This document shows positions 1-17,967 of a stretch of 64,000 nucleotides of DNA, piece by piece. The notes under the pieces are model-generated. The model was not told where the DNA came from, did not search any database, and was given only the letters and a program-made list of their open reading frames with translations. A program made the position numbers and the translations under genes. This stretch comes from Eubacteriaceae bacterium (lineage in GTDB: Bacteria; Bacillota; Clostridia; Peptostreptococcales; Anaerovoracaceae), in the NCBI GenBank assembly GCA_902362435.1, contig CABIWW010000012.1, forward strand, positions 36,299-100,298, read 5' to 3'. Position 1 is the stretch's first letter. Each line of letters begins with the position of its first letter.

Positions 1-159
1 CTTGCTTCTTACCACGATAAATTCCCATGGGCGGCGACCCTTACTCGATGCTGAAAGCATCCCGGCCTGAAGCACTTTCTCTATCTTTTCATCATCTATA
101 CGCTCGCCTGTGTACTTCCTGACACTGCGGCGGTTTCTCATTATTTCAAGCAGATCCAT
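1..159 (-). CDS. Nitroreductase family protein, N-terminal 53 residues (runs off the left edge)
   Basis: Read leftward from an ATG at 159 with an AGAGGAG ribosome binding site 5-6 bases upstream. The visible start is MDLLEIMRNRRSVRKY, the classic opening of FMN-dependent nitroreductases: the Arg-Arg-Ser-x-Arg stretch binds the flavin phosphate in this family. It continues with a helix and a SASSKGRRPWEFIVV segment, where members position a Pro-Trp-x-Phe turn. Such proteins usually have 160-200 residues, so about two thirds lie outside the window. The substrate cannot be told from the N-terminus. Gene boundary and family are clear; the specific role is unknown. Confidence 0.85.
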   Translation of the reverse strand, partial: MDLLEIMRNRRSVRKYTGERIDDEKIEKVLQAGMLSASSKGRRPWEFIVVRSK

Positions 160-789
160 GATTTTCTCCTCTTTTCTATTACAATATAAATATGGTTAAT
201 ATCCCTTACCCCCTTACGGACAGTATGAGATCATCCATCTTGTTGCCTGTTTTTACGCAAATGTACGACAGCCTGGAAGCTCCTGCCGATCGACTGCTTT
301 TATTTTACTATCAAACTCGAAAAGCTTCAATCGAAAACCGAATTATATAATTTTGGCTCACCTCCGCGTTTCATGATCACCTCTTATTTCTGTGATGCAC
401 GGCTACTTACTTCTGTGATGTACGACTGTTACTCACAGCGATCTGGATCAGAACTATAAATCAGAATGATAAAATGATATAGCCTGGAAAAATCCCAAAG
501 TCACATACTGCATAAGTTGTATCAGAACTTGTGGACGCAGTATAATCCCGAAATCTGTGTATTATCCGCCACATTTAAAAATACCTGCACAAACGCTCTT
601 AAAAATGTGTATGATATGCGATCTTTCAAAAATAGTTACACACGATTTTCTATAATATATCAAAAATTACATCAAAAACGCGCCAAAAACGCATTTTTAT
701 CCAATATTTTCTATATTTGTGTGTAATAAAAAATAAATCCTTTTGTAAATACACAGACTAGAATGCGTTTGTGTATTGAGACTAAAAAA
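160..789. other. AT-rich intergenic stretch with no convincing gene
   Basis: About 630 bases between the nitroreductase and the CRISPR relic. The only open frame (517-726, plus strand) lacks a ribosome binding site, has biased lysine/asparagine-rich content and no recognisable motif, so I do not call it. The stretch should contain the nitroreductase promoter (minus strand), but I see no clear -35/-10 pair. An inverted repeat with 8-base arms AATACACA/TGTGTATT (748-755 and 770-777) could end transcription arriving from the relic CRISPR leader. Confidence 0.5.
388..436. repeat. Imperfect direct repeat of about 23-26 bp, two copies
   Basis: Two adjacent copies begin with TTCTGTGATG(C/T)ACG at 388 and 411 and both end near TTAC/CTCAC. 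They lie about 230 bases upstream of the nitroreductase start on its promoter side. They may be a regulator binding site or a simple duplication; no function can be assigned from sequence. Confidence 0.4.
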
Positions 790-878
790 CAATGTATTCT
801 ACACAAAATCAAAGAGCCTCAATTTAAGTTACAGATAAATTGAAAGGTCTCTGCATTCTATGATGTAACTGTTAAATC
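790..878 (-). CRISPR. Relic or solo CRISPR unit: one decayed repeat, a 38-base spacer-like stretch and half of a second repeat
   Basis: Read leftward. A repeat-like 30-mer at 849-878 matches the array consensus at 23 of 30 positions by eye. It is followed by a 38-base spacer-like stretch (811-848), close to the normal 34-38. At 790-810 lies a second partial repeat that keeps GATTT and ATACATTG of the consensus with a 3-base insertion, followed by a T-run. The whole sits directly behind a second copy of the leader (879-947). The Cas6 stem is broken at two of six pairs (TACATC/AATGCA) and the handle is ATGCAGAG instead of ATGTAAAG, so efficient processing is doubtful. It may be a decayed older array or a degenerate crRNA-like guide. 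I found no target for it in the window. Confidence 0.6.
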
Positions 879-947
879 CCCAACCTCTTCAAACTCTCTA
901 ATTATAACACTTCCAGGCTGTGTTTTGTTTACCTCTTAATCAATAAG
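879..947 (-). promoter_or_regulatory. Second copy of the CRISPR leader core
   Basis: These 69 bases align without gaps to the 69 bases next to the leader-proximal repeat (3518-3586), with about 14 differences by eye (about 80% identity). Both copies keep a TATAAT box on the minus strand (here 906-901), the AGAGAG segment behind it, and the same distance to the following repeat. This copy lies 26 bases beyond the leader-distal end of the main array and points the same way, towards the decayed repeat at 849-878. It could still start transcription of a short crRNA-like RNA. Confidence 0.65.
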
Positions 948-973
948 TGTTTCCGACTTTCGTCCATATGCCA

Positions 974-3517
974 TTTTACATTCCACAATGTATCTATTAA
1001 ATCGCTTCACTAAGTCATTTACTGAGCATGGTCTTGTTACTTTACATTCCACAATGTATCTATTAAATCTTGTCTCCGTCGATTGTCGTACATGCTACAT
1101 CGTTCTTTACATTCCACAATGTATCTATTAAATCTATACCTTTTGCTATAATAATGACATAAGATAAAGAACTTTACATTCCACAATGTATCTATTAAAT
1201 CCAGGAATCAACAAAACATAAAAATCAGAAACACCATTCTTTACATTCCACAATGTATCTATTAAATCGTCAGTACCTTGCGCAAAAATTTCACGATTTT
1301 TAACCTTTACATTCCACAATGTATCTATTAAATCCGTAGTGTTCTACATTCCAGTCCGTGCTGCCGGATGACTTTACATTCCACAATGTATCTATTAAAT
1401 CCCGAGACAGATCAGATGATTTACTCCGTTCTGGGTCTCTTTACATTCCACAATGTATCTATTAAATCTGAACCCTATCAGCTCATCATTTGCGGACGCG
1501 CCCTCCTTTACATTCCACAATGTATCTATTAAATCGCGAATACCGCACTGAATGCATCGTAGCAAAAACAGTGCTTTACATTCCACAATGTATCTATTAA
1601 ATCGTAGTTTCTGCCCTCGCGCGTTACGATGTCATTCTCTTTACATTCCACAATGTATCTATTAAATCCAATAACGAATATGTCTATGATCCGCTGCCGA
1701 AGCCTTTACATTCCACAATGTATCTATTAAATCCAGAGCTCTGATCAACGCAAATGTCGTTCAGGATCTGCTTTACATTCCACAATGTATCTATTAAATC
1801 GGTGATGATGCTCTTCTTTCTGCTCGCTTGGGGCGGCTTTACATTCCACAATGTATCTATTAAATCCGCAAACGGCACCGGATCTGTGACTATCGAAAAA
1901 CCTTTACATTCCACAATGTATCTATTAAATCTGTATTGCATTCGAAAACACAAGGACCGTTATTGCCTTTACATTCCACAATGTATCTATTAAATCTTAA
2001 ACTGGCTTGCGGGAATGACGGTTCGTGACGACCTTTACATTCCACAATGTATCTATTAAATCTCAGTTGCTCTGTTCCCGGTTCGATCATCTCCTCTTCT
2101 TTACATTCCACAATGTATCTATTAAATCTTACGCACGGACCATACACGATCATTTTAAATTCTGACTTTACATTCCACAATGTATCTATTAAATCTTCAG
2201 TTGCTCTGTTCCCGGTTCGATCATCTCCTCTTCTTTACATTCCACAATGTATCTATTAAATCATGAATATCACCACGGACGCTATCATGGCGATCTGCCT
2301 TTACATTCCACAATGTATCTATTAAATCGATTTTAATGCTGTAGCATCAGAAGACGGTACAGCCTTTACATTCCACAATGTATCTATTAAATCTACAGCC
2401 GGAAACATCATCGCGCAGCTGCAGAAAAACTTTACATTCCACAATGTATCTATTAAATCTCGTGCTTTCCTGCGCACACGCGCCAGTTTTCCGCCTTTAC
2501 ATTCCACAATGTATCTATTAAATCTGCACGAGGTTCGAAGATCAAATAAATTTGTCTTTCAGCTTTACATTCCACAATGTATCTATTAAATCAATATGCG
2601 TCGTTGCAACGCTGGTCATCGCTGCAGCTTTACATTCCACAATGTATCTATTAAATCTTTTCCCCGAATTTATTCCGCGTGCATATTTTTCCACTTTACA
2701 TTCCACAATGTATCTATTAAATCTGAAAAGTGGAAAGCAAACCGACAACGCCGCAACAAACTTTACATTCCACAATGTATCTATTAAATCTGGCACGTGA
2801 TCCAGGGAACGCCGGCAACCGGAACGCCTTTACATTCCACAATGTATCTATTAAATCTCTATTTATGACGACACCAAAACCGGCCGCTGCTGTCTTTACA
2901 TTCCACAATGTATCTATTAAATCTGCCCAGAGGGCTCTCCGTATCGATGTTTTCTTTTACTTTACATTCCACAATGTATCTATTAAATCTGCCGCCCTTA
3001 ATGTCTTTTAGCATTTTTTTCAGTGCCTTTACATTCCACAATGTATCTATTAAATCCCTTGAACACTTGCGTGTCAAACTCTCTGAAATCTACTTTACAT
3101 TCCACAATGTATCTATTAAATCTGACATCTATCGCCGGCCTGCCGGAAATAAAAGAGGCTTTACATTCCACAATGTATCTATTAAATCTGAAAAGTGGAA
3201 AGCAAACCGACAACGCCGCAACAAACTTTACATTCCACAATGTATCTATTAAATCGCTCGGCAGGTGCTTTGAAAAATACGTCAAAGCCGCCTTTACATT
3301 CCACAATGTATCTATTAAATCTTGTCCACGAACGCGCCCTCATTGATAATCGCCGCTTTACATTCCACAATGTATCTATTAAATCGAGCAGATCGCGTAC
3401 CAGATCGGCACGGAAGAAGCTGCTTTACATTCCACAATGTATCTATTAAATCAAGAAGAAAATTTCGTTATTTTTGCATGAAAGTGCCTTTACATTCCAC
3501 AATGTATCTATTAAATC
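974..3517 (-). CRISPR. Type I-B CRISPR array, 39 repeats of 30 bp and 38 spacers
   Basis: Repeats start every 64-68 bases from 974 to 3488. On the transcribed (minus) strand the repeat begins GATTTAATAGATACATTG and ends TGGAATGTAAAG. It carries a 6-bp hairpin TACATT-GTGG-AATGTA and, after Cas6 cleavage, an 8-base handle ATGTAAAG, very like known Clostridioides I-B repeats ending GGAATGTAAAT. Spacers are 34-38 bases. Polarity follows from this handle, from the leader at 3518, and from the only altered repeat being at 974 (last base changed), the leader-distal end. Two spacer pairs are duplicated: 2063-2098 with 2196-2232, and 2724-2760 with 3189-3225. Many short open frames across this region are artefacts of the repeat. 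Confidence 0.98.
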
Positions 3518-3705
3518 CCCGTACTCTTCAACCTCTCTAATTATAGTACTTCCCAGCTATGTTTTGTCCACCTCTTGATTAATAAATTTTCCTGGCCTTC
3601 ACTGGTATGCGAAAATCACGGTAAAAGCTGCCGGAGTGTGTGCTTTTCAGGGTTTGTCGACTGGCTACGTTTTTTGCATTATCAGGAGTCGACAAAGGTA
3701 AATGA
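3518..3705 (-). promoter_or_regulatory. CRISPR leader and array promoter
   Basis: The stretch between cas2 and the leader-proximal repeat. On the minus strand it has a perfect -10 box TATAAT (3545-3540) preceded by TAC; the best -35 candidate is TGGACA (3570-3565) at a wide 19-base spacing. Transcription would begin about 15-20 bases before the first repeat. The same core recurs at 879-947. No gene fits here; a plus-strand frame starting at 3575 overlaps cas2 and is a shadow. Confidence 0.75.
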
Positions 3706-3984
3706 TCAAATTAAGAAACTGGTCTTGTCATCTTCGATGCCCCAGAATTCCTTGTCCAGCCATCTTTCCTGCCGGCTTTTGAACAGTATTATCGAGTCCA
3801 GCGAGGTGTCAACATGCGGCTTCAGTTCCTGCCTGAGCTTTTCCAGCTGGACCTTTGACAGCTCGCCTTCAAAAACCGAATTCTGGATATGCGTCAGATA
3901 TTTTTTGCATATCTTGAATATGCGCGACCACCTCTTCTGCCCGTTATCCGTCTTGCTTATATCATATACCAGCACAATATACAT
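3706..3984 (-). CDS. cas2: CRISPR adaptation endonuclease-like protein Cas2
   Basis: A 92-residue protein, the usual Cas2 length. It opens MYIVLVYDISKTD, the beta-1 strand with the conserved Asp (residue 8) of the ferredoxin-like fold, and has HIQNSVFEGEL, the typical (Q/N)xSVFEG motif of the second half. Cas2 dimers bridge two Cas1 dimers in the complex that inserts new spacers at the leader end of the array. The start is 3 bases after the cas1 stop, so the pair is translationally coupled. It is the last gene of the cas operon and lies next to the leader. Confidence 0.97.
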   Translation of the reverse strand: MYIVLVYDISKTDNGQKRWSRIFKICKKYLTHIQNSVFEGELSKVQLEKLRQELKPHVDTSLDSIILFKSRQERWLDKEFWGIEDDKTSFLI

Positions 3985-3987
3985 TTT

Positions 3988-4980
3988 TCACCACCATATT
4001 CTGAACCCTTCATACTCTTTTTCACCGATCAGATGCTTTATCAGCTTGTAAGCTTCCAGACGCATCAGATACTGATACGAAACTTTCCGCCCGAGCTCCC
4101 TGTGCATGATCGTCTTCTTCAGCCGGTTTTCAAACTCAGAAACTATCAGCCTCGAGGCATCCTGCTTCAGATGCATGAAGTTTAGTTCTTTTGTAAAGCT
4201 GCCCTCTGTTATCTGCCTCCTGTTCAGGAGCGAAAAAATCAACCGGTCACCTATCAGAGGCTTGAAGACCTCGGTCAGATCCAGGCAAAGCGAATACCTG
4301 CGCACTCCCGGTTCATGCAGATAGCTTATCGTCGGATCGAGCTGAGTTTTATATATTTCACTTAAAGCCTTCGTGTATATCAAAGAATTCACGTACGAAA
4401 TCAGTGAATTGATCATATTGTCCGGCGGATGCATCACTCTTTTTTCAAACCGGATGTCCTGATCCACTATGATATTCCATGCCGAATAATAGCTTTTGCG
4501 TATATTCCCTTCGATCCCCATGAGCTCATCGATCTTTTTCGCAGACGATATCCCACGCCTCAGGCTGTCTATCTCTCTCATGTAAAGCGATACATCTTTT
4601 CCTCTTCCGTTATAATAGCGCAAATTACGATATATATTGTCTGCCGCGGCTTCTATGAATTTCCTGGCGATCACGAGCCGCTTACTGTCATCCGTGTAAT
4701 GTTCCACCTGTCTGACCAGCATCTGTCCTGCCAGCAGACTTTCTCTAGGGTAGTAGCTCCCTGTATAGAAACTGTAGTGATTGAAGAAATGCATCGGTAT
4801 CCCGTACTTTGATATATAATTGATAAAATTCGTATTGAACGTCATCTCCGACATGACATATATATCAGAAATACGTTCAACCGGCATGTCACGTTTTTCT
4901 CCTTCATATGTCGTAAACTGCAGTGTGTTGTCTTTACGCTTCAGATCTCCACTGCTGTAGACATAAAAACTCTGTTTCAT
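3988..4980 (-). CDS. cas1: CRISPR spacer integrase Cas1 (type I-B)
   Basis: 330 residues counted from ATG 4980, chosen because AAAGGAGG lies 5 bases upstream; an upstream alternative start lacks this. The N-terminal beta domain (YVYSSGDLKRKD, ISDIYVMSEM) is followed by the helical catalytic domain with YLHEPGVRRYSLCLDLTEVF, the conserved metal-binding His/Asp segment of I-B Cas1 enzymes. With Cas2 it joins protospacers to the first repeat. Gene order cas4-cas1-cas2 with tiny gaps is typical of subtype I-B, where Cas4 trims prespacers and selects the PAM. Confidence 0.97.
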   Translation of the reverse strand: MKQSFYVYSSGDLKRKDNTLQFTTYEGEKRDMPVERISDIYVMSEMTFNTNFINYISKYGIPMHFFNHYSFYTGSYYPRESLLAGQMLVRQVEHYTDDSKRLVIARKFIEAAADNIYRNLRYYNGRGKDVSLYMREIDSLRRGISSAKKIDELMGIEGNIRKSYYSAWNIIVDQDIRFEKRVMHPPDNMINSLISYVNSLIYTKALSEIYKTQLDPTISYLHEPGVRRYSLCLDLTEVFKPLIGDRLIFSLLNRRQITEGSFTKELNFMHLKQDASRLIVSEFENRLKKTIMHRELGRKVSYQYLMRLEAYKLIKHLIGEKEYEGFRIWW

Positions 4981-4997
4981 CAGGTCCTCCTTTCCGG

Positions 4998-5492
4998 TCA
5001 AATAAAGCACAGATCATGGTATGCACACTTTCGACATATTTTTTTCTCGCAAAAATCAGGTGGGATTTCCTGCTTCCTTACCCTATTGATCTCTTCAATG
5101 ATGCATTCGAGTTCATGTTCATCCTCAGACAGCAGTTCTACAGTCAGATTCTGTTTCAGCAGAGGATAATCTATCCTTGCTTTCATATCTCTAAGCCCTC
5201 GCTGTGCAAGATAGTACAGATAATATTTGACCTGCCAGATCCCCGCTTCCTCTATCGATCTGCTCTTTTTTATTTCATGCAGTTCACGGTGTCCTTTTAT
5301 GAAATCTATATTTATCACATTGTCTATGTTTATATGTTTTTCATCACGCCTGTAACTGTTTTCATCCAGCAGTTTTCCAAGCATCACATCTTCATTTTCA
5401 TTCTCCATGTTTATCTCGTGGCAAAAATACCACAGCTTTCTCTTACAGACAAAATGATAATATATCATCATTCCTGTGATTCTTTCTTCCAT
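4998..5492 (-). CDS. cas4: CRISPR prespacer nuclease Cas4
   Basis: 164 residues from ATG 5492, which has GGAGAG 6 bases upstream. It is a RecB-like nuclease with an iron-sulfur cluster. One cysteine sits near the N-terminus (FVCKRKLWYF, about residue 16) and three cluster at the C-terminus in the CEKKICRKCAYHDLC segment, giving the cluster ligands. The ExK motif of the active site is seen as HEIKKSR, with acidic residues before it. Cas4 processes the ends of prespacers and helps choose fragments with a correct PAM before Cas1-Cas2 integrates them. It lies 17 bases before cas1. Confidence 0.93.
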   Translation of the reverse strand: MEERITGMMIYYHFVCKRKLWYFCHEINMENENEDVMLGKLLDENSYRRDEKHINIDNVINIDFIKGHRELHEIKKSRSIEEAGIWQVKYYLYYLAQRGLRDMKARIDYPLLKQNLTVELLSEDEHELECIIEEINRVRKQEIPPDFCEKKICRKCAYHDLCFI

Positions 5493-5510
5493 AAGCAACT
5501 CTCCTGCAGA

Positions 5511-7871
5511 TCAGCATATCATAAACGTTTCCTGCTGTTCTTCAGCCTTGATGAAGAGGCCTTTACCACTCAGCGTTTCCTCATCGAAATCGTATTCAGC
5601 GCAATTTTCATCTATCCTGTGTATGAAAGTCCCCTTGATCGGCTCTTTATCCATCGCGTTCCTGTACCTCTTGTCATACGAGGCTACATTGAGAGTAAGC
5701 GCATCCAGCTTTGAGTTGAGTACAGCTTTTATTTCTGTACCTATATTCGCACCACACAAAATATTGCTACATACACGTATCATTTCATGTTCCTTCTGGT
5801 ATATGCTGTCAGGCATAACAGTCGTGTTTCTTATCTTTCGAAAGCTGTCATCCGCTTCACTTTTGCTGTATTCAGCAAATAATATAGTTTCGAAATGTCG
5901 GAGCATATCCTTTATTTCTTTATAATAATTGCTGTTTTCTATTTCGGGCGAACCATAAACTTCGTTCACGCATTCTGTTTTCATTTTCTCGGAAAGCACC
6001 TCGCCGGTAATTTTTCTGATACAGTGCAGTGACTCGTCATAGATCACCTCGTCGTATATCGTTTTTCTGCCGTTTTTCGTATCATGCACTATGATATTAG
6101 GATGTTCAGGGAAGTATCTGCCAGAACGGTTGCAGCGGCCCATGCGCTGCAGCAGGCTGTCGATCGGGCACATCTCCGTATACAAAATATCAAAATCTAT
6201 ATCGAGACTGGCCTCCACGATCTGCGTAGTCACCCAGATGCCTTCCGCGCCTTCCTGCACAGAAAAGTCCATTATGCTTTTCTCAAGCAAGTCACGATGC
6301 TTTCTGATAAAACCTGCGTGCAGCAGCTTTACATTGCTATTCATTTCTCGCAGCGAGTCATAGACCCTCTGGGCTTTGCGCACTGTATTGCATATCACAA
6401 GCACTTTCCTGCCGTGTGCGCTTTCCAGTATCTCATTGATATCCATTTCACCGTCTGTCACAGATACGATATGCCTCTTCAGCTCTGATTCACCTGAAAA
6501 ATCCTGCAGATAGCACTCTTCACCAAAGCGCAGTCCGTGCTCTTCCATAAGTTTTTTCAGCACCGGCGGGAAAGTCGCTGTTATTATCGCAAACCGCCCG
6601 CCCATCTCTGATATTGTTTTTAGCCCGTATATCAGCGCTGCAACTACGCGCGGAGAATACGACTGTATCTCGTCGATTACCACCTTTGAATATTTGAGCG
6701 TCGCCGCAAATATTTCAGTGCCTGCGGCTTTATACGAGAATTTGAACAGCTGATCCACCGTGCATACTGTCAATGGTGCGGACAGAAGCTTCGCCTTTTC
6801 ATAGCGGCTGTAGCCATCGCCCTTTTCAGAGGATTCTTTGAGGAATTTCTTCATGCTGCCCGAGTGCAGAAGCGCCGCCTCTTTATACTCATATCGTTCA
6901 CGTATCCTGTCGTATATCGCATCAGACGAGACCATCATCGGAAGCGTGTAAAAACCTTTTTCGCCATCGAGCCATAAAAGCGCCGCTTCTGTTTTACCGG
7001 ATCCTGTCGGTGCTATCACTACCAGGTTATCCTCAGAATGCTCACGCATGTATTCCTGCGCTGGTCTAAGATTACCGTCCAGGCTTTTTTCGATACTTGA
7101 TTTCAGCTTCTTTTCTATCAGATCGGGATGCTGCTCCGCTTCACTGTACCCGGCGCTCACGGACCAGTCAAATTTGTTCAGCATACCCTTCACCAGGATA
7201 TACTCGCGCCATATTTCATCATCTACATCTGAATTCCGGCATTGCTGATTCAATCTGAATATGACCTTCCGAATGTTTCCAACAGAAAACTCCCACTTAT
7301 CGTCATCAAGGAACTCTCTGACGGATTTGTTGTAATATTTTTCCGCATACCCATTAATATCTTTAGCTTTATATTCATCATCTCTTGTGTGGTGATGATA
7401 AACAGCAGTAATGAACACCTTGAAATCATCCTCCGTGAAGCGCTCATCTATATCCTTGAAATCATTCCACGAAACCGACAGTGCACTCAGGTGACCATGC
7501 GGCATCTGCCGCACGCCCTTCAATTTCTCGTTATCAGTAATCCTATCCTGAAAAACTTCGTTTGCCTTGCCTATATCATGATATCTGCAGGCCGCTATGA
7601 TCAGTTTTATTTCTTTTTCCGAAAAATATTTTCCATGGTCGACAAAGAATCCTTCAGCACATTTCACTGTTTCATCAAGGTGATCTTTTAACAGTTTCTG
7701 CGGCCCGTTTTTTCCGGCTTTCACTTTCTGAGCTGCATTATCTATCGCAGCAAGTTCCCAGTCAGCCAGTTCGCCATGCAATACTTCCTTAAGCTCACGC
7801 ACTGATTTCAAAAAAGTGTCTTTCTCCTTGCCGGTAATGCTCCGTTCTTCTGATTTTGCATAATACTCCAT
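5511..7871 (-). CDS. cas3: CRISPR helicase-nuclease Cas3 (HD plus SF2 helicase)
   Basis: 786 residues. The N-terminal HD nuclease shows DHLDETVK (about 63-70), YHDIGKANEVFQ (HD at 98-99), PHGHLSA and the YHHH run near 160, the expected metal ligands. The SF2 helicase follows: Walker A APTGSGKT (287-294), DEIQ box (400-403), TATFPP motif III and QRMGRCNRSGR motif VI. Once Cascade has opened a target, Cas3 is recruited to the displaced strand and degrades DNA processively. All catalytic motifs look intact, so interference should be active. It starts 74 bases after the cas5 stop, the widest gap in the operon, with its own AAAGGAGG. Confidence 0.97.
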   Translation of the reverse strand: MEYYAKSEERSITGKEKDTFLKSVRELKEVLHGELADWELAAIDNAAQKVKAGKNGPQKLLKDHLDETVKCAEGFFVDHGKYFSEKEIKLIIAACRYHDIGKANEVFQDRITDNEKLKGVRQMPHGHLSALSVSWNDFKDIDERFTEDDFKVFITAVYHHHTRDDEYKAKDINGYAEKYYNKSVREFLDDDKWEFSVGNIRKVIFRLNQQCRNSDVDDEIWREYILVKGMLNKFDWSVSAGYSEAEQHPDLIEKKLKSSIEKSLDGNLRPAQEYMREHSEDNLVVIAPTGSGKTEAALLWLDGEKGFYTLPMMVSSDAIYDRIRERYEYKEAALLHSGSMKKFLKESSEKGDGYSRYEKAKLLSAPLTVCTVDQLFKFSYKAAGTEIFAATLKYSKVVIDEIQSYSPRVVAALIYGLKTISEMGGRFAIITATFPPVLKKLMEEHGLRFGEECYLQDFSGESELKRHIVSVTDGEMDINEILESAHGRKVLVICNTVRKAQRVYDSLREMNSNVKLLHAGFIRKHRDLLEKSIMDFSVQEGAEGIWVTTQIVEASLDIDFDILYTEMCPIDSLLQRMGRCNRSGRYFPEHPNIIVHDTKNGRKTIYDEVIYDESLHCIRKITGEVLSEKMKTECVNEVYGSPEIENSNYYKEIKDMLRHFETILFAEYSKSEADDSFRKIRNTTVMPDSIYQKEHEMIRVCSNILCGANIGTEIKAVLNSKLDALTLNVASYDKRYRNAMDKEPIKGTFIHRIDENCAEYDFDEETLSGKGLFIKAEEQQETFMIC

Positions 7872-7945
7872 ATGATCCCCGACCTCCTTTCAGAAGTTGC
7901 CTGCGGTTCTGACTTCTATACATGACTCATTTCCGGATCATACAG

Positions 7946-9513
<1,568 letters not shown>

Positions 9514-9521
<8 letters not shown>

Positions 9522-11214
9522 CGCGACCTTCCTCCTTTTCATCATCCTGCGTCTTTACCGAATAACTTCCCTTCAATCCCAGTACGAATGCATACCCGTC
9601 TTCCTGGAAGCACTTCTGATCTCCGATCATGTATATAAATCCTTCCGGCATCTGAAGCCTGCTCGAGCAGTACATTCGCATCACTATTTCTATAAACTTT
9701 TTATCATTTCCGACTGAAAGAGCATTGAGAAGCTGATATATAGTTCCGCGGAGAAAATCATCGCTTGTCAGCCCTCTGCTTTCCATCAGATTTTTCCGCA
9801 GAGCATACCCGCTGTCTCTCATCCTGTATTTATTCATAAAAGCATTACCTCCTTTGTTCTCGTTTATATGGCACTGCTGCAGCTGGATGCAGTACACCAT
9901 GAAAGCCGTTCCCAGCATACCGTCGTTTTCTATCGAAGCCTTCATCAGCCTGTTCAGCAGCGGATACTGTTCACGGTATTTCAGCAGATTCATTATGACT
10001 TCCTCATACACATTCAGGTATTCGCTGCCTATTTTGCAGAACGGATGCTCTGCCAGTTTCCCAAGGCAGCTTTTCACCGTTTTATCATTAAGGATCCTCA
10101 GTACAGGCTTGCTTATTATGCTGAAGGCATATCTGTCGCTCTCATTCGTACCTCTCATGATCACCTGTATATTTAAAAGCTCATTCGTCTTGTCTTCGAG
10201 CACCATGTTCACAACTCTTGCAAACCACGACGGATATCTTTCATCTTTTTCTTTCATCGAACTATCTTCCACCGCAGGTATTTTTTTATTGACGCCAATA
10301 ATCGTTTTTACATTGTGATTCAAATTCACAAATACGAATTTATTTCCGATAAGCTGAAAACCCAGTGGACTCATCGCATACAGGAATGCACATACCGGAC
10401 ATAGATACGCATCCACTTTCCCGTTCCAGAATGCAGATCTTTTTCGTGCCAGATCATCGGCCATTTCTTTCATAAATGCTATAGAAACCTTCTCCCCACT
10501 CTTAATAGGCATGCCGCATTCTATACATGAATCCTTAGACCTGCTGTGATCGCTTTTCAGATACTCTACGAACGGGATTCCAAAATCTTTTGCAAATATT
10601 GCTCTCATGTTTTTGTCTGCATTTTTACGATGGAGGAAACATTTTTTATCCCAAAATCTGTTTATGATGCTGTATATGATGCTTTTCATCGCAAAAGTTT
10701 CCCTGCAGATGTCATTTGAAAGGAAAACCTTGAGTCCTCTCAGTTTTTCAAGAAGCAGTGTCTCATCCATTTTGTCACTGAGTTTTTCTTTTTTCAGCTG
10801 CTCATACGCTTCCATGCATTTTACTTCATCACTGCCTGCAGCCTCTTTTATGTTTTCAAATCCTGCCTTGTAACTGTTTAACAGCAGTTTGTCATTTATA
10901 TACTTCAGCTGTTCTCTGTTTTCTTTCGTAGCTTCCCAGCTGTGGATCTCCAGTTTACTGATGCAGCTGTCGATCTTCTTTTCGATCTCAGGCAGTACTG
11001 TCGCCGGCCCTAAATATTTTACAAAAGCTTTGAAATATACGTCTGTCCAGTCAGTATCCAGTGCAAATGCCCGGTCTATCCAGAACGTATATTTATCATC
11101 AGAGATCCCGTAATCGACACCTTCTCTCGCACCGTGATTTTCGAGTGCATAATAAAGGCCTGTGATGCCTGCGTTTTTAAGAAAATCCCCAAGACTTATT
11201 TCTAAACGATCCAT
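9514..11214 (-). CDS. cas8b: Cascade large subunit Cas8b (Cst1-like)
   Basis: 566 residues with AGAGGGGGTG 5 bases before the ATG. The opening MDRLEISLGDFLKNAGITGLYY and a central zinc-finger-like module, SCIECGMPIKSGEKVS followed by AYLCPVCAFLYAMSPLGF, are typical of the Cst1/Cas8b1 group found with Cst2 and Cas5t. The large subunit reads the PAM and recruits Cas3. This places the locus in the I-B variant once called Tneap. The family diverges fast, so assignment rests on the zinc module, length and position between cas6 and cas7. Confidence 0.9.
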
Positions 11215-11229
11215 ATTACACCCCCTCTG

Positions 11230-11952
11230 TTACAGCAGCAGCGTCCACTTGCCATGCCCTGATGACCGCCTTGCACCCATTCCCGCCTGATACAATACGT
11301 TCAGAAGCTCTGGCGTTCCTGTCAGTTTGTACACTCCCAAGCTGGCATCCGTATTTCTGCCAAACACGGGCACGACGACTTTCTTTGCTTTTACCGGTGT
11401 TATAGAAAATCCTTCTGTAGAAACGCTTGTCCCTGTTTTCTGAAGAAAGAAATCTATATTTTCTTTGAGTGCTTCACTGAACTCCCGGTCTTCAAAGGTG
11501 TAGTACGTGTCTTTATTGTTTTCGTAATCATGTCTCCTGACAACAAGAGGGCTCATCATCTTTACCACAACTTCACGATCTCTGATATCCCTGTATCGCT
11601 GCATCACGAGTGAGACAAGTGTCATCGAATTGTTTTTCATCGGATATCGTTTTTGTACAAGTGATTTGAACCCGTTAAAAAACCGTATGAATTCGCCCAG
11701 ATCACTGTCCGAAAAAAACATCGTGAGTCTGCTGCTCCCGAGCAGTATACGATCCGCTTCAAATCTGGGCCTGTCCAGCATATATGAATATGTATACTGC
11801 TTCAGCACCGATCTGTCTTTGGCGTACATTTCGTGGAAAAATTCCTGCGATGATGCTTCTGCCGCCGCTTTTATGAAGCTGACCAGCAGTCTGTCGAGCT
11901 CTTTCGGCAGTTCAGGTTTTTCCAGCTCAAATACTAGCTTTAATTGCTGCAT
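11230..11952 (-). CDS. cas6: CRISPR RNA endoribonuclease Cas6
   Basis: 240 residues. It is the first gene of the operon, with AAAGGAG 7 bases before its ATG. The C-terminus has the glycine-rich loop GMGARRSSGHGKWTL diagnostic of Cas6 RAMP proteins; candidate catalytic His residues are in the N-terminal half (FFHEMYAKD). Cas6 cuts the repeat just below the TACATT/AATGTA stem, leaving the ATGTAAAG handle. The crRNA-like RNA at 12108-12212 keeps this stem and should also be its substrate. The cas8b start lies 15 bases downstream. Confidence 0.95.
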   Translation of the reverse strand: MQQLKLVFELEKPELPKELDRLLVSFIKAAAEASSQEFFHEMYAKDRSVLKQYTYSYMLDRPRFEADRILLGSSRLTMFFSDSDLGEFIRFFNGFKSLVQKRYPMKNNSMTLVSLVMQRYRDIRDREVVVKMMSPLVVRRHDYENNKDTYYTFEDREFSEALKENIDFFLQKTGTSVSTEGFSITPVKAKKVVVPVFGRNTDASLGVYKLTGTPELLNVLYQAGMGARRSSGHGKWTLLL

Positions 11953-12013
11953 GATTTACTCCTTTCGTTAATTATGATTATTTTGCCCGTTTTATTTGTT
12001 TGAATTTTCTTTC

Positions 12014-12042
12014 ATTATAAGCCCTCTCATGATTCTTGTCAA
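12014..12042 (-). promoter_or_regulatory. Promoter of the cas operon, perfect sigma-A consensus
   Basis: On the minus strand TTGACA (12042-12037), a 17-base spacer and TATAAT (12019-12014), a perfect consensus. Transcription would start near 12007, about 55 bases before the cas6 ATG. Such a strong unregulated promoter would overproduce Cas proteins, which makes the repressor target touching its -35 box (12043-12067) meaningful. Confidence 0.9.
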
Positions 12043-12067
12043 CCAGATATATGTGTTTTATAACATG
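12043..12067 (+). promoter_or_regulatory. Candidate Cascade self-target: CCA PAM plus seed match to the divergent crRNA-like RNA
   Basis: CCA at 12043-12045 is a PAM compatible with the CCW type reported for clostridial I-B systems. The next bases, GATATATGTGTTTT (12046-12059), match the pseudo-spacer start GATATTTGTGTATT (12128-12141) at 12 of 14 positions. The two mismatches fall exactly at 6 and 12, the bases flipped out by Cas7 in type I complexes and not read. Pairing then ends, as expected for binding without cleavage. The PAM touches the -35 box of the cas promoter on one side, and the R-loop approaches the -35 box of the RNA's own promoter (12074) on the other. Confidence 0.75.
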
Positions 12068-12073
12068 AGTCTC

Positions 12074-12102
12074 TTGATTTGAAATTTTATTTGTTGTATA
12101 AT
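12074..12102 (+). promoter_or_regulatory. Promoter of the crRNA-like RNA, divergent from cas
   Basis: TTGATT (12074-12079), a 17-base spacer and a perfect TATAAT (12097-12102). The predicted start at about 12108-12110 falls at the first base of the Cas6 hairpin, so the transcript needs no long leader. The box is back to back with the cas promoter, 31 bases between the two -35 elements. Confidence 0.85.
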
Positions 12103-12107
12103 CCGTT

Positions 12108-12212
12108 ATACATATTGGAATGTAAAAGATATTTGTGTATTTATCACTCAATTTAATAGCCCCATATTGGATCTCATCAGCTCCCTGCCACCACTAGTGG
12201 CGGGGAGCTTTA
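12108..12212 (+). ncRNA. CreR-like crRNA-like guide RNA predicted to repress the cas operon
   Basis: The unit reads: half-repeat 1 (12108-12127; 17 of 20 bases match the 3' two thirds of the CRISPR repeat, with a 5-bp stem TACAT/ATGTA and handle ATGTAAAA); a 22-base pseudo-spacer (12128-12149); half-repeat 2 (12150-12172; keeps ATTTAATAG and TTGGA of the repeat's 5' part); and an intrinsic terminator. It is the only repeat-like element on the plus strand and has its own promoter. The pseudo-spacer seed matches a CCA-flanked site at the cas promoter. Known crRNA-like guides (CreR for cas genes, CreA for toxins) share this architecture. No toxin frame is present, which favours CreR over CreTA. 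Processing and binding are inferred, not shown. Confidence 0.78.
12179..12212 (+). terminator. Intrinsic terminator of the crRNA-like RNA
   Basis: A 13-base-pair stem (12179-12191 with 12197-12209, one G-U pair), loop CACTA, followed by a short T-rich tail TTTACT. It begins 6 bases after half-repeat 2 and closes a transcription unit of about 100 bases. Confidence 0.8.
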
Positions 12213-12544
12213 CTATGCCATACATATTTTCACAGTTGAACCCCTTCCCTTTCCCTGTTATATTAATATCAAAGATCGTGCATTATGCCGCTTTCATCCG
12301 CGCCGGTTCTCCTTGCGAATGATGTGTCGAGCGGAAGCACGGAAAGCTTTCTCCCTATGGAAAAAATTATGACGTGCTCATAAAAGCATTGCATTCTCAA
12401 CATCTGCAGCGTTTTTACACTAAAATAAAGTACCGATTTTTACTACAGGGGTATGAAATATGGTACCTGGGTACCATAGATTTCAGAAAGCTTAGATAGT
12501 ATAATCATTCACGAAATAATCAAACAATATTGAAAGGACTGCTT
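12213..12544 (+). promoter_or_regulatory. Upstream region of the LuxR gene: palindromic operator and -10 box
   Basis: No gene between the RNA terminator and the LuxR gene. A perfect inverted repeat with 9-base arms, TATGGTACC-TG-GGTACCATA, lies at 12459-12478, followed by a TATAAT box at 12500-12505. The palindrome occupies the -35 to -45 position and no good -35 hexamer is visible. That arrangement suggests an activator, possibly LuxR autoregulation, but could equally be a repressor site. The rest of the region shows nothing I recognise. Confidence 0.6.
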
Positions 12545-13297
12545 ATGAGTCAGGAACTGTGGACGAAAGACTGGAAAAAAATCAACGATATAATACTCCA
12601 GATGAACAGCGAAAGCGACATCCTCAAGGCTTTGAACACATTTCTAGTTGATATCGAGGGACTGGTGCCTTATGAGAAAGCGTGTATATACTTTTATGAC
12701 CTTTCTGCACCTAACACTGTCAAGCATTACCTCGGTCAGGGCTTCAGCGACAAGGAGCTCAGGGATTACGAGCGTTACTACTGCAAAATCGATGACGTTG
12801 TGGACAAGATGATGCCGAACAAGGAGGTCGTGATCAAAAGCACAGAGGCTTTCGATATAGAGCAGCGAAAGGAGACTGAGTACTTCATCGATTACGTGAC
12901 TCCGGCAAACACCAAGATCTCTCTGGATACGAATTTCCGATGGAATCTTGAAAACAGGGAGTTCTGCATCGGTTCACTGGATCTGTTCCGCAATGAGAAG
13001 GACATCGATTTTTCTGAAAGGGAAGTTGAGATCTGCAGGGTATTCCAGCCTCATCTCGAGCTGAAGGCTTCGAACTACGCATTCCTGTTTGACAATATCG
13101 CTCATCAGTATTCGCTGACTAACGCCGAGCAGGATATCGCGACTATGATCCTTAAAGGCTATTCCAACGAGCAGATAGCCGAGGAAAAATGCATCACGAT
13201 ATCCACGGTCAAAAAGCATGTGACCAGGATACTGGAAAAATCCGAAACAAAATCGCGTATCGAATTCATCTGCAAGACTACCGGCAAGGGCAAATAA
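12545..13297 (+). CDS. LuxR-type transcriptional regulator
   Basis: 250 residues from ATG 12545, which has GAAAGGA 6 bases upstream; a TTG 15 bases earlier is less likely. The C-terminal 60 residues are a LuxR/GerE helix-turn-helix: LTNAEQDIATMILKGYSNEQIA, then CITISTVKKHVTRILEKS, with the conserved Glu in the first helix and the recognition helix TVKKHV. The N-terminal ~180 residues resemble a GAF/autoinducer-like sensory fold but have no motif that names a ligand. It precedes a nitrilase and an amino-acid permease on the same strand and probably controls them. Confidence 0.8.
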   Translation: MSQELWTKDWKKINDIILQMNSESDILKALNTFLVDIEGLVPYEKACIYFYDLSAPNTVKHYLGQGFSDKELRDYERYYCKIDDVVDKMMPNKEVVIKSTEAFDIEQRKETEYFIDYVTPANTKISLDTNFRWNLENREFCIGSLDLFRNEKDIDFSEREVEICRVFQPHLELKASNYAFLFDNIAHQYSLTNAEQDIATMILKGYSNEQIAEEKCITISTVKKHVTRILEKSETKSRIEFICKTTGKGK

Positions 13298-13337
13298 ACG
13301 CAGCTGCCGGCCGGCGCAGGCAGTGCGTATCAACCAA

Positions 13338-13366
13338 TTGACAATTATTTGGAATAATTTTAATAC
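13338..13366 (+). promoter_or_regulatory. Promoter of the nitrilase-permease operon
   Basis: Perfect TTGACA (13338-13343), 17-base spacer and TAATAC (13361-13366) as a weak -10 box, 20 bases before the nitrilase start with its AAAAGGAG site. Confidence 0.7.
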
Positions 13367-13386
13367 TACTAAAAAAGGAGAACACT

Positions 13387-14280
13387 ATGAAAGACATTAT
13401 CACTGTTGCCGTGGCAAACTTCAGAGTCGATGCGGCAAACAAAGAGAGCAACCTTTCCAGAATGTGCGGATTTGCAGAAGCTGCAGCTAAGCGCGGCGCA
13501 AACCTCATCTTATTCCCTGAGATGTGTCTCTACGGTTATGACTACTACGTAGATGAAACTATCCCTCAGGAAGAAAAGATCAAAACCGCAGAAACGATCA
13601 ACGGTCCTTCATGCCAGGCGATCGCAGAGATCACAAAGAAATACGGGATCTATGTTGTTTTCGGAATGGCAGAAAAAATGGAAGAAACACCTGACGCAAC
13701 GCTTTACAACTCAGCTGTTGCAATAGGTCCTGACGGTGTTATCGGCGCTTACCAGAAGATGCATCCGTTCGAAACAGAGAGCATCTGGTGTGTAAAGGGC
13801 GAAAAGCCGTTCATGTTCGATACTCCATGGGGTCCGATCTCAGTGGGCATCTGCTTCGATACATATCAGTTCCCTGAACTCCAGAGATACTACTGCGGAC
13901 AGGGCAGCAGACTTTACCTGAACCCTACTGCAGTTATCGAGGAGATCCCTAAGGAAGGCAGCCGTCAGGCATTCATAGACTACTATGCACCTACTCTCGA
14001 ATACGGAGTTCTGTGCAATACTATCTTCGTTGCAAGCTCGAACCTCTGCGGTACTGACATCGTGGACTACTTCGGCGGCGGCAGCTGCATCATAGGACCG
14101 AAGATCACTCCGTTCTATGAGACAAACCTTCACTACTATGCAGGAAACAAGGATAATGTACAGGAAGGCATCTTCATCGAAACGATCGACCTTTCTCTCG
14201 CAGAAAGACGTCTGTTCGTAAACAAGGAGATCACTGGTGTTCCTGACTACAGACCTGACCTTTACAAAAAGTTTCTGTAA
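13387..14280 (+). CDS. Carbon-nitrogen hydrolase (nitrilase superfamily)
   Basis: 297 residues. The catalytic triad is visible: Glu45 in LILFPEMCLYGYDY, Lys124 in GAYQKMHPFE and Cys156 in SVGICFDTYQFPEL. Such cytosolic enzymes cleave C-N bonds of amides, N-carbamoyl compounds or nitriles through a Cys thioester. The motif next to the Cys is Cys-Phe-Asp, closer to amidase branches than to true nitrilases. The permease gene starts 46 bases downstream on the same strand, so substrate import and hydrolysis are probably coupled. The substrate is unknown. Confidence 0.87.
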   Translation: MKDIITVAVANFRVDAANKESNLSRMCGFAEAAAKRGANLILFPEMCLYGYDYYVDETIPQEEKIKTAETINGPSCQAIAEITKKYGIYVVFGMAEKMEETPDATLYNSAVAIGPDGVIGAYQKMHPFETESIWCVKGEKPFMFDTPWGPISVGICFDTYQFPELQRYYCGQGSRLYLNPTAVIEEIPKEGSRQAFIDYYAPTLEYGVLCNTIFVASSNLCGTDIVDYFGGGSCIIGPKITPFYETNLHYYAGNKDNVQEGIFIETIDLSLAERRLFVNKEITGVPDYRPDLYKKFL

Positions 14281-15655: not shown

Positions 15656-15780
15656 AGCACAGTGCAGCGGCAGGCAAACGTACGGCATCGCGAATACAGA
15701 TGCTATGTGCAATGCAGGCCGTATGATACAGCAAAGCTGCAGTGCAGCATAAACAAATTCTATAATATACAAAAATCATA

Positions 15781-17585
15781 GGGGCTGTCGCATTAACGAT
15801 TTAAGGTCGTTAGGGCGGTGTCCCTTTTTCATTTCTTTAAAACATTGGAATTCTAAGCTTACTCTTTGATGATCATATTGTTGTTTTGCGTATCACAAAA
15901 TACAGACACTATTCTCGTCTCTGAACTTCCGTTTCAGTTTTTTCATTTAAAATTATGCAGCTTCTTTTTCCTGTTTCAGTTCATAAAGATGCAGGTTGAG
16001 CTTATCGTTTTGGATCCTGCTATGAAGCCATCCCAGGTTATGTGACATGGCAAAGAGTATGTATTCCGCCTGCACATTGACGCTTCCACGACACAGGAAT
16101 CCAGTAAATCCACAGTCTCCTTTGATATCGGCAAAGCATCCTTCTGCCTGTATACTTCTGTTCATGCGCAGCTTTTTTCCTTCTTCCGAATCGATGAGCC
16201 GGTATTCTTCCGCCCGCAGAGCCTCAAATTTTCGTGATACGATCAGAGTCTTGTATCTTTTATCCAAAGGTTTCTTCCAGTTCTTTCCTTCAAGACATTT
16301 TGCTCTGTGAGGACATCCGTCGCATTCTTCACAGTAGTAATGGGTTTCTTCCCGGATATATCCTGAGGCTGTTTTGACTTTTCTGCTTCCCGTTTTTTTG
16401 ACAGCTTTTCCATTGCAGCAGATGTAACAGTCATGCTCTGCATCATACATCATATTTTCTTTGCGACCGATTTCCTTTGAAAATTTCCGGGTGCCGATCT
16501 GTTCATAGCTGCCAGGCTTTATGTAGGCTGCGATCCCCCTTTTCCTTAAGATAGGTCAGATTCTCTTCACTTTCATATCCGGCATCTGCTACGATCCTCT
16601 CAAACTTCATGTTCAGATTCGATTCCATGTTTTCCACGAATGGCTTTAATGTCAGTACATCTGTTGGATCAGGGAATATCCCCACAGAAACAATAAATCC
16701 GGAATTAACAGCATGCGGTACATTAAATGCAGGTTTGAGCTGTCCGTTCATCATATGATCATCCTTCATATGCATGAAAGTTGCATCATTGTCGGTCTTG
16801 GAATAACTGTTTCGCATACCGCATTTGTGGATCTTCAGCTCGTATTCCCTGATCTTTTCAAGCGCAGCTTCCAGATCCTCGATATCTCTCTGCAGCTGTT
16901 CTTTTCTGTGCCCTCGCCCGCAGACGAATTCAAGGCCCTGCTTCCGCGCAAGGGTTTTGAGAGTTTTCAGTAGCTTCTTTACATGCTTTTTCCTGACCTG
17001 CTTTTGCCATAACGGCTTAAGGTCATATCGCTGTATGATATCTCCAACCAGCAAAGCAGTTTTTCTTGAAAATCTTGCCTGATGCCTTGAAACTGCCCGT
17101 TTCCATACAAAAGTATATTTGTTTGCAGCAGCCTCGATCTTTGTTCCATCAATGAAAACTTCTGACGTGGTAAGCTGATCAAGTTCATAAAGTATGCGGC
17201 TCATCTGGGCCAGGAAGCTTTGCGCACATTTTGCAAAGTGCTTTGTTCGGAATCTTGCGATCGCGGCATGATCAGGTGCAGCTCTGCCTTCCAGAAGATA
17301 TTTGTAATTGATATCACGCCTGCAGTTTTTCTCGATGGACCTGGAAGAAATATCTTTGGCTTCATGGTATGCATACAGCATTACCTTTATCAAAGCATCC
17401 AGTTCCATTGGTATTTTCAATTGATAGTTTTGTTCGTTCAGTATATACTGTTTTCGTAAGATGTTGTGTTTGGTCATACAACTATTTTACCATACCCTGC
17501 TCACATCCTTGTGATCAGGGTAGTTTTTTTGCACGAAAAAAGAGGCTCCGCCCTAACGATCTTAAATCGTTAATGCGACAGCCCC
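15781..17585. mobile_element. IS1182-family insertion sequence with 38-bp terminal inverted repeats
   Basis: The ends GGGGCTGTCGCATTAACG (15781) and its inverse ending at 17585 form 38-bp inverted repeats (15781-15818 and 17548-17585) with a single mismatch. A 4-bp duplication CATA flanks both sides (15777-15780 and 17586-17589). The 1805-bp element carries one transposase reading leftward, broken by a frameshift. It has landed 8 bases beyond the 3' end of ssrA. The well-preserved ends and target duplication indicate a recent insertion. Confidence 0.93.
15953..17477 (-). pseudogene. IS1182-type transposase, frameshifted
   Basis: The first part (17477-16503) gives 324 residues opening MTKHNILRKQYILNEQNYQL with the IS1182 N-terminal and DDE-type domain (VFIDGTKIEAAANKYTF). 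The second part (to 15953) has the C-terminal cysteine-rich module (CDGCPHRAKC). Reading switches frame at a run of four A and five G on the minus strand (about 16535-16543). Removing one G restores KGIAAYIKPGSYEQIGTRKF and a continuous protein of about 507 residues. Either an indel has killed the gene, or slippage at the run yields a little full-length enzyme. Confidence 0.88.
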
Positions 17586-17593
17586 CATAGGTT

Positions 17594-17967
17594 TGGTGGA
17601 GATGACGGGAGTCGAACCCGTGTCCGAAAGCATTTCCACGAGACTTTCTCCGAGCGCAGCTTATGTTTTAAGATTTCGCCTCTCTCAACGCCCAAAAGCA
17701 GGCTTTGAAATCAGCTATCCCGTTGTTCCCTCATGCTGCCGGGCTTTCACATGAAGTTTTCCTGTATGATCGATGCCAGGTCTCCAGCCTACAGGTGAGC
17801 CGGAGCTGACACGCACAGCTTATGACTGACTACGCAGCCATAGCCATAGGTGCGAAATTATTGTTCTTTTTAGCGTTTATATTTAAACGGCCACTTTTAA
17901 CGTAGACTTGGCGACTACGGCTCGCTTATCCGGTTTCCACACCCCCGTCGAAACCATAAACATCCCC
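17594..17967 (-). ncRNA. ssrA: Transfer-messenger RNA (tmRNA)
   Basis: 374 bases. The 5' end GGGGATGTTTATGGTTTCGA and 3' end TCGACTCCCGTCATCTCCACCA (last 22 bases, 17615-17594) pair as the tRNA-like acceptor, with an encoded CCA and a T-loop GGGTTCGACTC. The mRNA-like part encodes a tag that, by my reading, ends NNNFAPMAMAA before TAG, preceded by GCTAAAAAGAAC (resume codon probably GCT). It rescues stalled ribosomes with SmpB, whose gene is 370 bases upstream on the same strand. The tag ends in Met-Ala-Ala rather than the usual Leu-Ala-Ala. Confidence 0.97.

Follow-up and report, generated by a model that had tools for sequence, protein, structure and literature searches.

A degenerate mini-CRISPR facing a type I-B cas operon in a Eubacteriaceae bacterium: a probable CreR-type guide RNA gene with counterparts around related cas6 genes

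What does a lone unit resembling a CRISPR RNA (crRNA; CRISPR, clustered regularly interspaced short palindromic repeats) do outside the array and facing away from the cas genes? The question is raised by 64,000 nucleotides (nt) of a Eubacteriaceae bacterium (contig CABIWW010000012.1, positions 36,299 to 100,298; below, the window, with positions counted from its first letter), in which a type I-B cas locus runs on the minus strand in the order cas6-cas8b1-cas7-cas5-cas3-cas4-cas1-cas2 and is followed by a CRISPR array. Divergent from it lies a unit made of a degenerate repeat (the first psi-repeat), a 22-nt pseudo-spacer and a second psi-repeat. In our reading, this unit is very probably a gene of the CreR type (here creR), that is, a degenerate one-spacer mini-CRISPR whose RNA would lead the type I-B Cascade to repress the cas operon without cutting it.

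The central observation is a match between the pseudo-spacer and the cas promoter region. The guide, read from 12128 (GATATTTGTGTATT...), agrees with the plus strand at 12046-12059 (GATATATGTGTTTT) at positions 1-5, 7-11 and 13-14, and is mismatched at 6 and 12. The full target of the 22-nt guide spans 12046..12067 (plus strand), and its seed end is adjoined by CCA (12043..12045, plus strand), a candidate protospacer-adjacent motif (PAM) that also touches the predicted -35 box of the cas operon. The original prediction, made from the letters alone, had claimed this match with its two mismatches, a CCA next to the seed, an end of pairing after base 14 and a perfect cas promoter beside the site. 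All four are borne out: positions 15-20 are unmatched, with a lone match at 21, and the predicted cas promoter, TTGACA-17-TATAAT on the minus strand (-35 box 12037..12042, -10 box 12014..12019), agrees with the consensus at 12 of 12 positions. On both strands of the 64-kilobase (kb) window, this is the sole site besides the guide itself to carry the complete 10-base seed (1-5, 7-11), and 9 of the 10 bases occur at two CC-flanked sites.

The unit itself has the build of a decayed repeat-spacer-repeat. Its first psi-repeat (12098..12127, plus strand) retains 7 of the last 8 nt of the array repeat, those of the 5' handle, and 11 of the first 22; the second (12150..12179, plus strand) retains 16 of the first 22 and 1 of the last 8, and 0 of 300 shuffles of it align equally well with the array repeat. 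Degenerate repeats and a spacer of only 22 nt (12128..12149, plus strand), against 34-38 nt in the array, set the unit apart from a mini-CRISPR serving immunity. The handle expected on the mature small RNA is predicted to read ATGTAAAA, and the first psi-repeat, folded alone, keeps a 5-base-pair (bp) hairpin. At the 3' side of the RNA, a terminator-like 13-bp hairpin (12179..12209, plus strand; -26.5 kcal/mol) is followed by TTTACTAT only, and a terminator scan called none there, the T-run being poor. The predicted creR promoter, called like that of cas by consensus only, is TTGATT-17-TATAAT on the plus strand; its -35 box lies at 12074..12079 and its -10 box at 12097..12102, where it overlaps the first psi-repeat in its 5' part, an arrangement shared by several relatives. 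The -35 boxes of cas and creR have 31 bp between them with the target site inside that gap, so that one bound Cascade could block both promoters.

To place the window among its relatives, we compared cas6 loci from genome collections; these were found by Cas6 alone, and the type I-B assignment applies to the window. In a first set of 53 distinct loci, a psi-repeat was sought on the strand opposite cas6 and the best 14-nt guide match was taken upstream irrespective of the PAM (left out were 7 near-duplicate and 5 short loci, as well as L054 and L057, which lack a tblastn match to the queries). In a second set of 72 loci, which includes the window, both strands were searched over 1200 nt and sites were picked regardless of PAM or position (left out were 9 duplicate or short loci, L054, L057 and loci with less than 350 nt upstream). 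A psi-repeat was found in 21 of the 53 loci, and its best upstream match was flanked by CCA or CCT in 20 of these 21, the exception being L005. Guides and regions from the same locus, with the PAM required, paired at 11 or 12 of 12 positions in 20 of 21 cases, whereas among 420 combinations of a guide with the region of another locus, 5 reached 11 of 12 and none 12 of 12. The larger set gave psi-repeats in 37 of 72 loci; 34 of them reached the match threshold of 11 of 14 (L005, L042 and L051 fell below), and 31 had a CC-flanked match (17 CCA, 12 CCT, 2 CCC). Matches of the same kind are thus present in 30 loci besides the window, with different letters in nearly all.

Where these guides fail to pair is equally informative. 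Over the 34 loci, among which L004, L040 and L050 have no CC PAM and look like chance matches yet are counted, positions 1-14 hold 52 mismatches, 37 of them at 6 and 12 (18 and 19, respectively); position by position the counts are 2, 0, 1, 0, 2, 18, 2, 0, 0, 2, 3, 19, 2 and 1. The binomial P for this clustering is 2.6e-20, shared ancestry being ignored. Position 18 is mismatched in 23 of the 34 loci as against 12 at position 17 and 17 at position 19, with later positions equally high. A search with positions 6 and 12 masked is biased and was kept out of the periodicity evidence. The special status that the original prediction gave to the two mismatched positions fits published work: in type I-B, positions 6 and 12 are dispensable, and 1-5 and 7-11 essential (PMC8501985). 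Its broader claim, a crRNA-like RNA that brings Cascade to the cell's own cas promoter without cutting, gains comparative support from the 31 CC-flanked loci with their clustered mismatches and from the 20 CCA- or CCT-flanked best matches among the 21 psi-repeat units.

The position of the promoters bears on the first rival explanation, in which the RNA is the CreA of a CreTA-like pair that represses a small toxin gene keeping CRISPR in the genome, any effect on cas being secondary. Small open reading frames (ORFs) of 20-57 amino acids do occur in the region (shorter ones lay outside the search), and a creT may have only few codons. Against this, the target touches the predicted cas -35 box and the only other promoter called beside it is creR's own, and on these grounds the promoter of a CreTA toxin gene was rejected as the target. 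Among the 19 other matched loci of the 53-locus set, moreover, 14 have a promoter-like pair downstream whose -35 box lies 16-39 nt from the start of the site, so that the far end of the guide points to the promoter there; in L037 the site overlaps such a pair, and L001, L012, L017 and L059 have no fitting one. We therefore regard a CreTA-like role as very unlikely.

A second rival would have the unit be a relic mini-array, in which a spacer once acquired from the cas promoter is decaying and has no present role. The degenerate repeats and the short pairing in the window would suit it, but decay would not be expected to alter 6 and 12 and yet leave positions 1-5 and 7-11 intact throughout the matched loci, and the promoter-like pair and the handle are kept. 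Nor would it be expected to produce the matched changes seen between L008 and L034, a pair identical at 326 of 359 aligned bases (91%; upstream region plus 30 nt of cas6). Between the two, positions 5, 7 and 8 have changed in guide and target alike with pairing kept, and position 6 has changed in the guide alone, the trace to be expected if pairing is under selection and the sixth base is flipped out. Counts over locus pairs run the same way, with 69 co-changed as against 9, and 5 as against 36 at positions 6 and 12, partly by construction and with pairs that are not independent, and weight is given only to the L008 and L034 pair; L034, a near-duplicate, was restored in these counts and in those of guide length as its guide differs. 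Taken together, a decaying relic appears highly improbable.

Finally, a chance match of two AT-rich stretches near a promoter is extremely unlikely: the region is AT-rich, and 18 of 500 shuffles of the window guide reach 12 of 14 without a PAM or position condition, but 0 of 3000 match in the 630-nt upstream region once a CC[AT] PAM and all 12 informative positions are required, no second such site exists in the 64 kb, and the same pattern recurs in 30 other loci. With the PAM, 11 informative positions were reached by 1 of 3000 shuffles. The significance is thus carried by the PAM and the positions, and with these two conditions the improbability asserted in the original prediction holds.

Having set these alternatives aside, we return to a CreR-type repressor guide and to the observations that weigh against it. 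The pairing in the window is among the shorter ones, with both weak positions mismatched and nothing paired at 15-20. Its target lies on the strand opposite the cas6-sense one, whereas all 19 other matched loci of the 53-locus set have theirs on the cas6-sense strand. The window's strand combination recurs in L085, L091 and L095 of the 72-locus set and in L109 and L113 of the hold-out described below. When the whole RNA is folded, its lowest-energy structure has pairing with the guide in place of the handle hairpin, and when the first psi-repeat is folded alone, 32 of 200 shuffles do equally well. Under the rule used, 35 of the 72 loci lack a psi-repeat, and L013, L024 and L005 are singly not significant without the PAM (147 of 500 and 129 of 500 shuffles reach the locus score in L013 and L024). 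The UvrA encoded in the window is 99% identical to that of a Eubacteriales metagenome-assembled genome and 91-92% to Lentihominibacter, Mogibacterium and Anaerovoracaceae records, which makes a host among the Anaerovoracaceae probable. Close strains offer no comparison at the window site: in 336 genomes of the presumed family, that of G758 (UvrA 73%), Cas6 has a match in 7, none above 35%. Further afield, the closest Cas6 relative is 93% identical and the next full-length ones at most 59%; 12 of the 25 genome records with a Cas6 alignment are titled Lachnospiraceae, and a Cas6 search of viral contigs gave no match.

Six later-fetched loci (L108-L113) served as a hold-out under a looser psi-repeat rule that allowed two mismatches, with mixed outcome. 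The best match of L109 is a CCA site mismatched at 12 and 13; L113 has a CCT site with positions 1-11 matched, tied with two other sites; and L111 has a CCA site with mismatches at 6, 12 and 13 that ranks below a site without CC. L108 and L112 lack the pattern, and the only CCA-flanked match of L110 lies 665 nt upstream, which also counts against the reading. In L005 and L110, a psi-repeat is present with no matching CC-flanked site near cas6, perhaps owing to a relocated target or to a unit no longer active. L009 has its creR unit some 1 kb upstream of cas6, with a guide that nonetheless matches a CCA-flanked site at -85.

Is CCA in fact a PAM of this system? The original prediction held CCA compatible with a CCW motif (W, A or T), and this stands in part. 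The array of a Blautia schinkii locus (L018), whose repeat is identical to that of the window at 26 of 30 positions, has five spacers with a listed phage match, and for three of them the best-matching contig has CCA as its PAM (spacers 7, 2 and 5, with closest phage matches of 38/38, 35/36 and 34/36). These contigs are listed as bacteriophage from human fecal samples and provide a usable PAM set for the group. Less favorable are the weaker contigs of spacers 2 and 5, which read CCA or CAA, as well as spacer 1 (34/38), which reads CCG, and spacer 4 (32/37, seed mismatched), which reads TCC. The window's own spacers do not yield a clean CCW either (8 of 82 matching records): the two that matched, 34 and 38, have diverged microviruses as targets, with GCT or GGT at the PAM position for spacer 34, and CAA or CGA at -3 to -1 (CC at -4 and -3) for spacer 38. 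No match was obtained for the window's spacer patterns in viral contigs, for its array against plasmids at an expectation value (E) of 1, or for the arrays of L003 and L019 against phages at E 0.5. Weak phage records numbered 3 for the array of L010 and 2 for that of L009; one of each (L082, L083) was examined and held no spacer match of at least 75%.

How might such a unit work? Pairing, CC motif, geometry and conservation are read directly from the DNA, and the biochemical steps that follow are inferred throughout. In the proposed sequence of events, creR would be transcribed from the promoter at 12074-12102, and Cas6 would process the first psi-repeat, leaving the 8-nt handle. A short Cascade would assemble on this RNA and bind at CCA by 12 base pairs with positions 6 and 12 flipped out, by which RNA polymerase would be blocked at the cas -35 box. 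Repression would be lifted, leaving the cas promoter free, once ordinary crRNAs in large number or an anti-CRISPR protein occupy Cascade. The literature listed for this reading also includes PMC5904413.

The length of the guide may be part of the mechanism. Pseudo-spacer lengths were counted for 25 of 32 second psi-repeats, those with P <= 0.02, the other 7 being left out; 18 of these 25 loci have pseudo-spacers of 20-24 nt (median 22, range 12-35), as against 34-39 nt for array spacers (227 spacers, 13 loci). In the type I-B system of Haloarcula hispanica, engineered guides of 21-24 nt repress with cas3 present and without interference or priming, leaving about 9-13% of the target mRNA in one strain and 10-29% in a second one; a 20-nt guide was weaker, a 28-nt guide still gave signs of cutting, and earlier work cited there found very weak priming with a 24-nt guide (PMC10989794). 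Most natural pseudo-spacers have lengths in or next to this range and, by analogy, may likewise repress without cutting. As about 22 nt lies inside the range in which a I-B Cascade represses but neither cuts nor primes, we propose that the length could act as a built-in safety lock. Combining this with the double-promoter site, we tentatively suggest, as possible if a little short of probable, that type I-B systems of Clostridia carry length-coded autorepressor guides of about 22 nt, and that Cascade in the window shuts off both cas and creR in a double feedback loop.

If the CreR-type reading is true, RNA-guided self-control of CRISPR would be common around this branch of Cas6 (31 of the 72 loci examined), and the natural record would amount to a mutagenesis experiment in which guide positions 6 and 12, and perhaps 18, drift freely and the others are held. 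The short guides would suggest how a cell aims Cascade at its own chromosome with Cas3 present, and the loci would be ready sites at which to test, in bacteria, whether an excess of crRNA or anti-CRISPR proteins brings release.

The remaining features of the window are as follows, all cas genes being on the minus strand. Protein family matches identify cas6 (11230..11952), cas8b1 (Cst1; 9514..11214), cas7 (Cst2/DevR; 8652..9545), cas3 (5511..7871), cas1 (3988..5010) and cas2 (3706..3984). The assignment of cas5 (Cas5t/Cas5b; 7946..8698) falls under the curated cut-off of the Cas5t model and over that of the general Cas5 model, and cas4 (4998..5498) has an E of 1.3e-15, under the curated cut-off. 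The CRISPR array (974..3517, minus strand) has 30-nt repeats, 38 of them identical and one a terminal variant. Over 1040-3517, spacer 5 equals spacer 12, and spacers 20 and 22 are one end base apart; capsid genes of Microviridae, phages with single-stranded DNA, are similar to spacers 38 (1004-1039) and 34 (1269-1304). The minus strand at 785-961, past the distal end of the array, holds what may be left of a second array: a duplicate of the leader (849-961 vs 3488-3600, matching at 77% across 113 nt) and then, as we read it, one or two degenerate repeats. This unit was rejected as a second regulator, since the window offers its guide no further full seed match and the one site that holds 9 of 10 seed bases has no CC flank. 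An Rfam search of positions 1-14000 returned nothing at gathering score. Further away, 15769-17597 is likely a broken insertion sequence, with 61-nt inverted repeats (85% complementary) that enclose two separate ORFs, an IS1182-type transposase fragment (15953-16453) and a second ORF (16503-17477). A transfer-messenger RNA gene with the tag AKKNNNFAPMAMAA lies at 17594-17967 on the minus strand.

How does the unit relate to systems already described? CreR, an RNA leading the effector to its own cas promoter, is reported for types I-B, I-E and V-A by reviews that cite Liu et al. 2023 (PMC12737573, PMC13131331, PMC12948488). The likeness to CreR (Liu et al. 2023, Cell Host Microbe, PMID 37659410) lies in a crRNA-like RNA that partly matches its own cas promoter, and the window has repeats resembling the array repeat outside the array, a PAM-flanked guide match at its predicted own cas promoter and an associated type I cas locus (cas6-8b1-7-5-3-4-1-2). 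The creR of the window is therefore probably a further example of a class known since 2023. Among the literature matches listed, no paper deals with such RNAs in these bacteria, a comparison that had Liu et al. 2023 and its supplement outside its range.

Other relatives are more distant. The guide in SpyCas9 autorepression is derived from the trans-activating crRNA, and that system differs from the present one in being type II with a single protein. The two would be alike in that the effector represses its own expression, which in SpyCas9 anti-CRISPR proteins relieve (PMC13131331). CreA of the haloarchaeal type I-B CreTA has the same two degenerate repeats, the first usually keeping its last 8 nt and the second its first 22, as well as a seed of 1-5 and 7-11 with positions 6 and 12 dispensable; it represses a toxin RNA gene with the PAM TTC, whereas the window has a cas promoter target and the motif CCA (PMC8501985). 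The short crRNAs of Haloarcula hispanica are designed guides (PMC10989794), in contrast to those of the window and its relatives, which are natural and pair partially. The short-guide rule and the double-promoter site may be new. In conclusion, the sequence evidence gives good support to the creR unit as a newly recognized case of a form of self-control already described for CRISPR.
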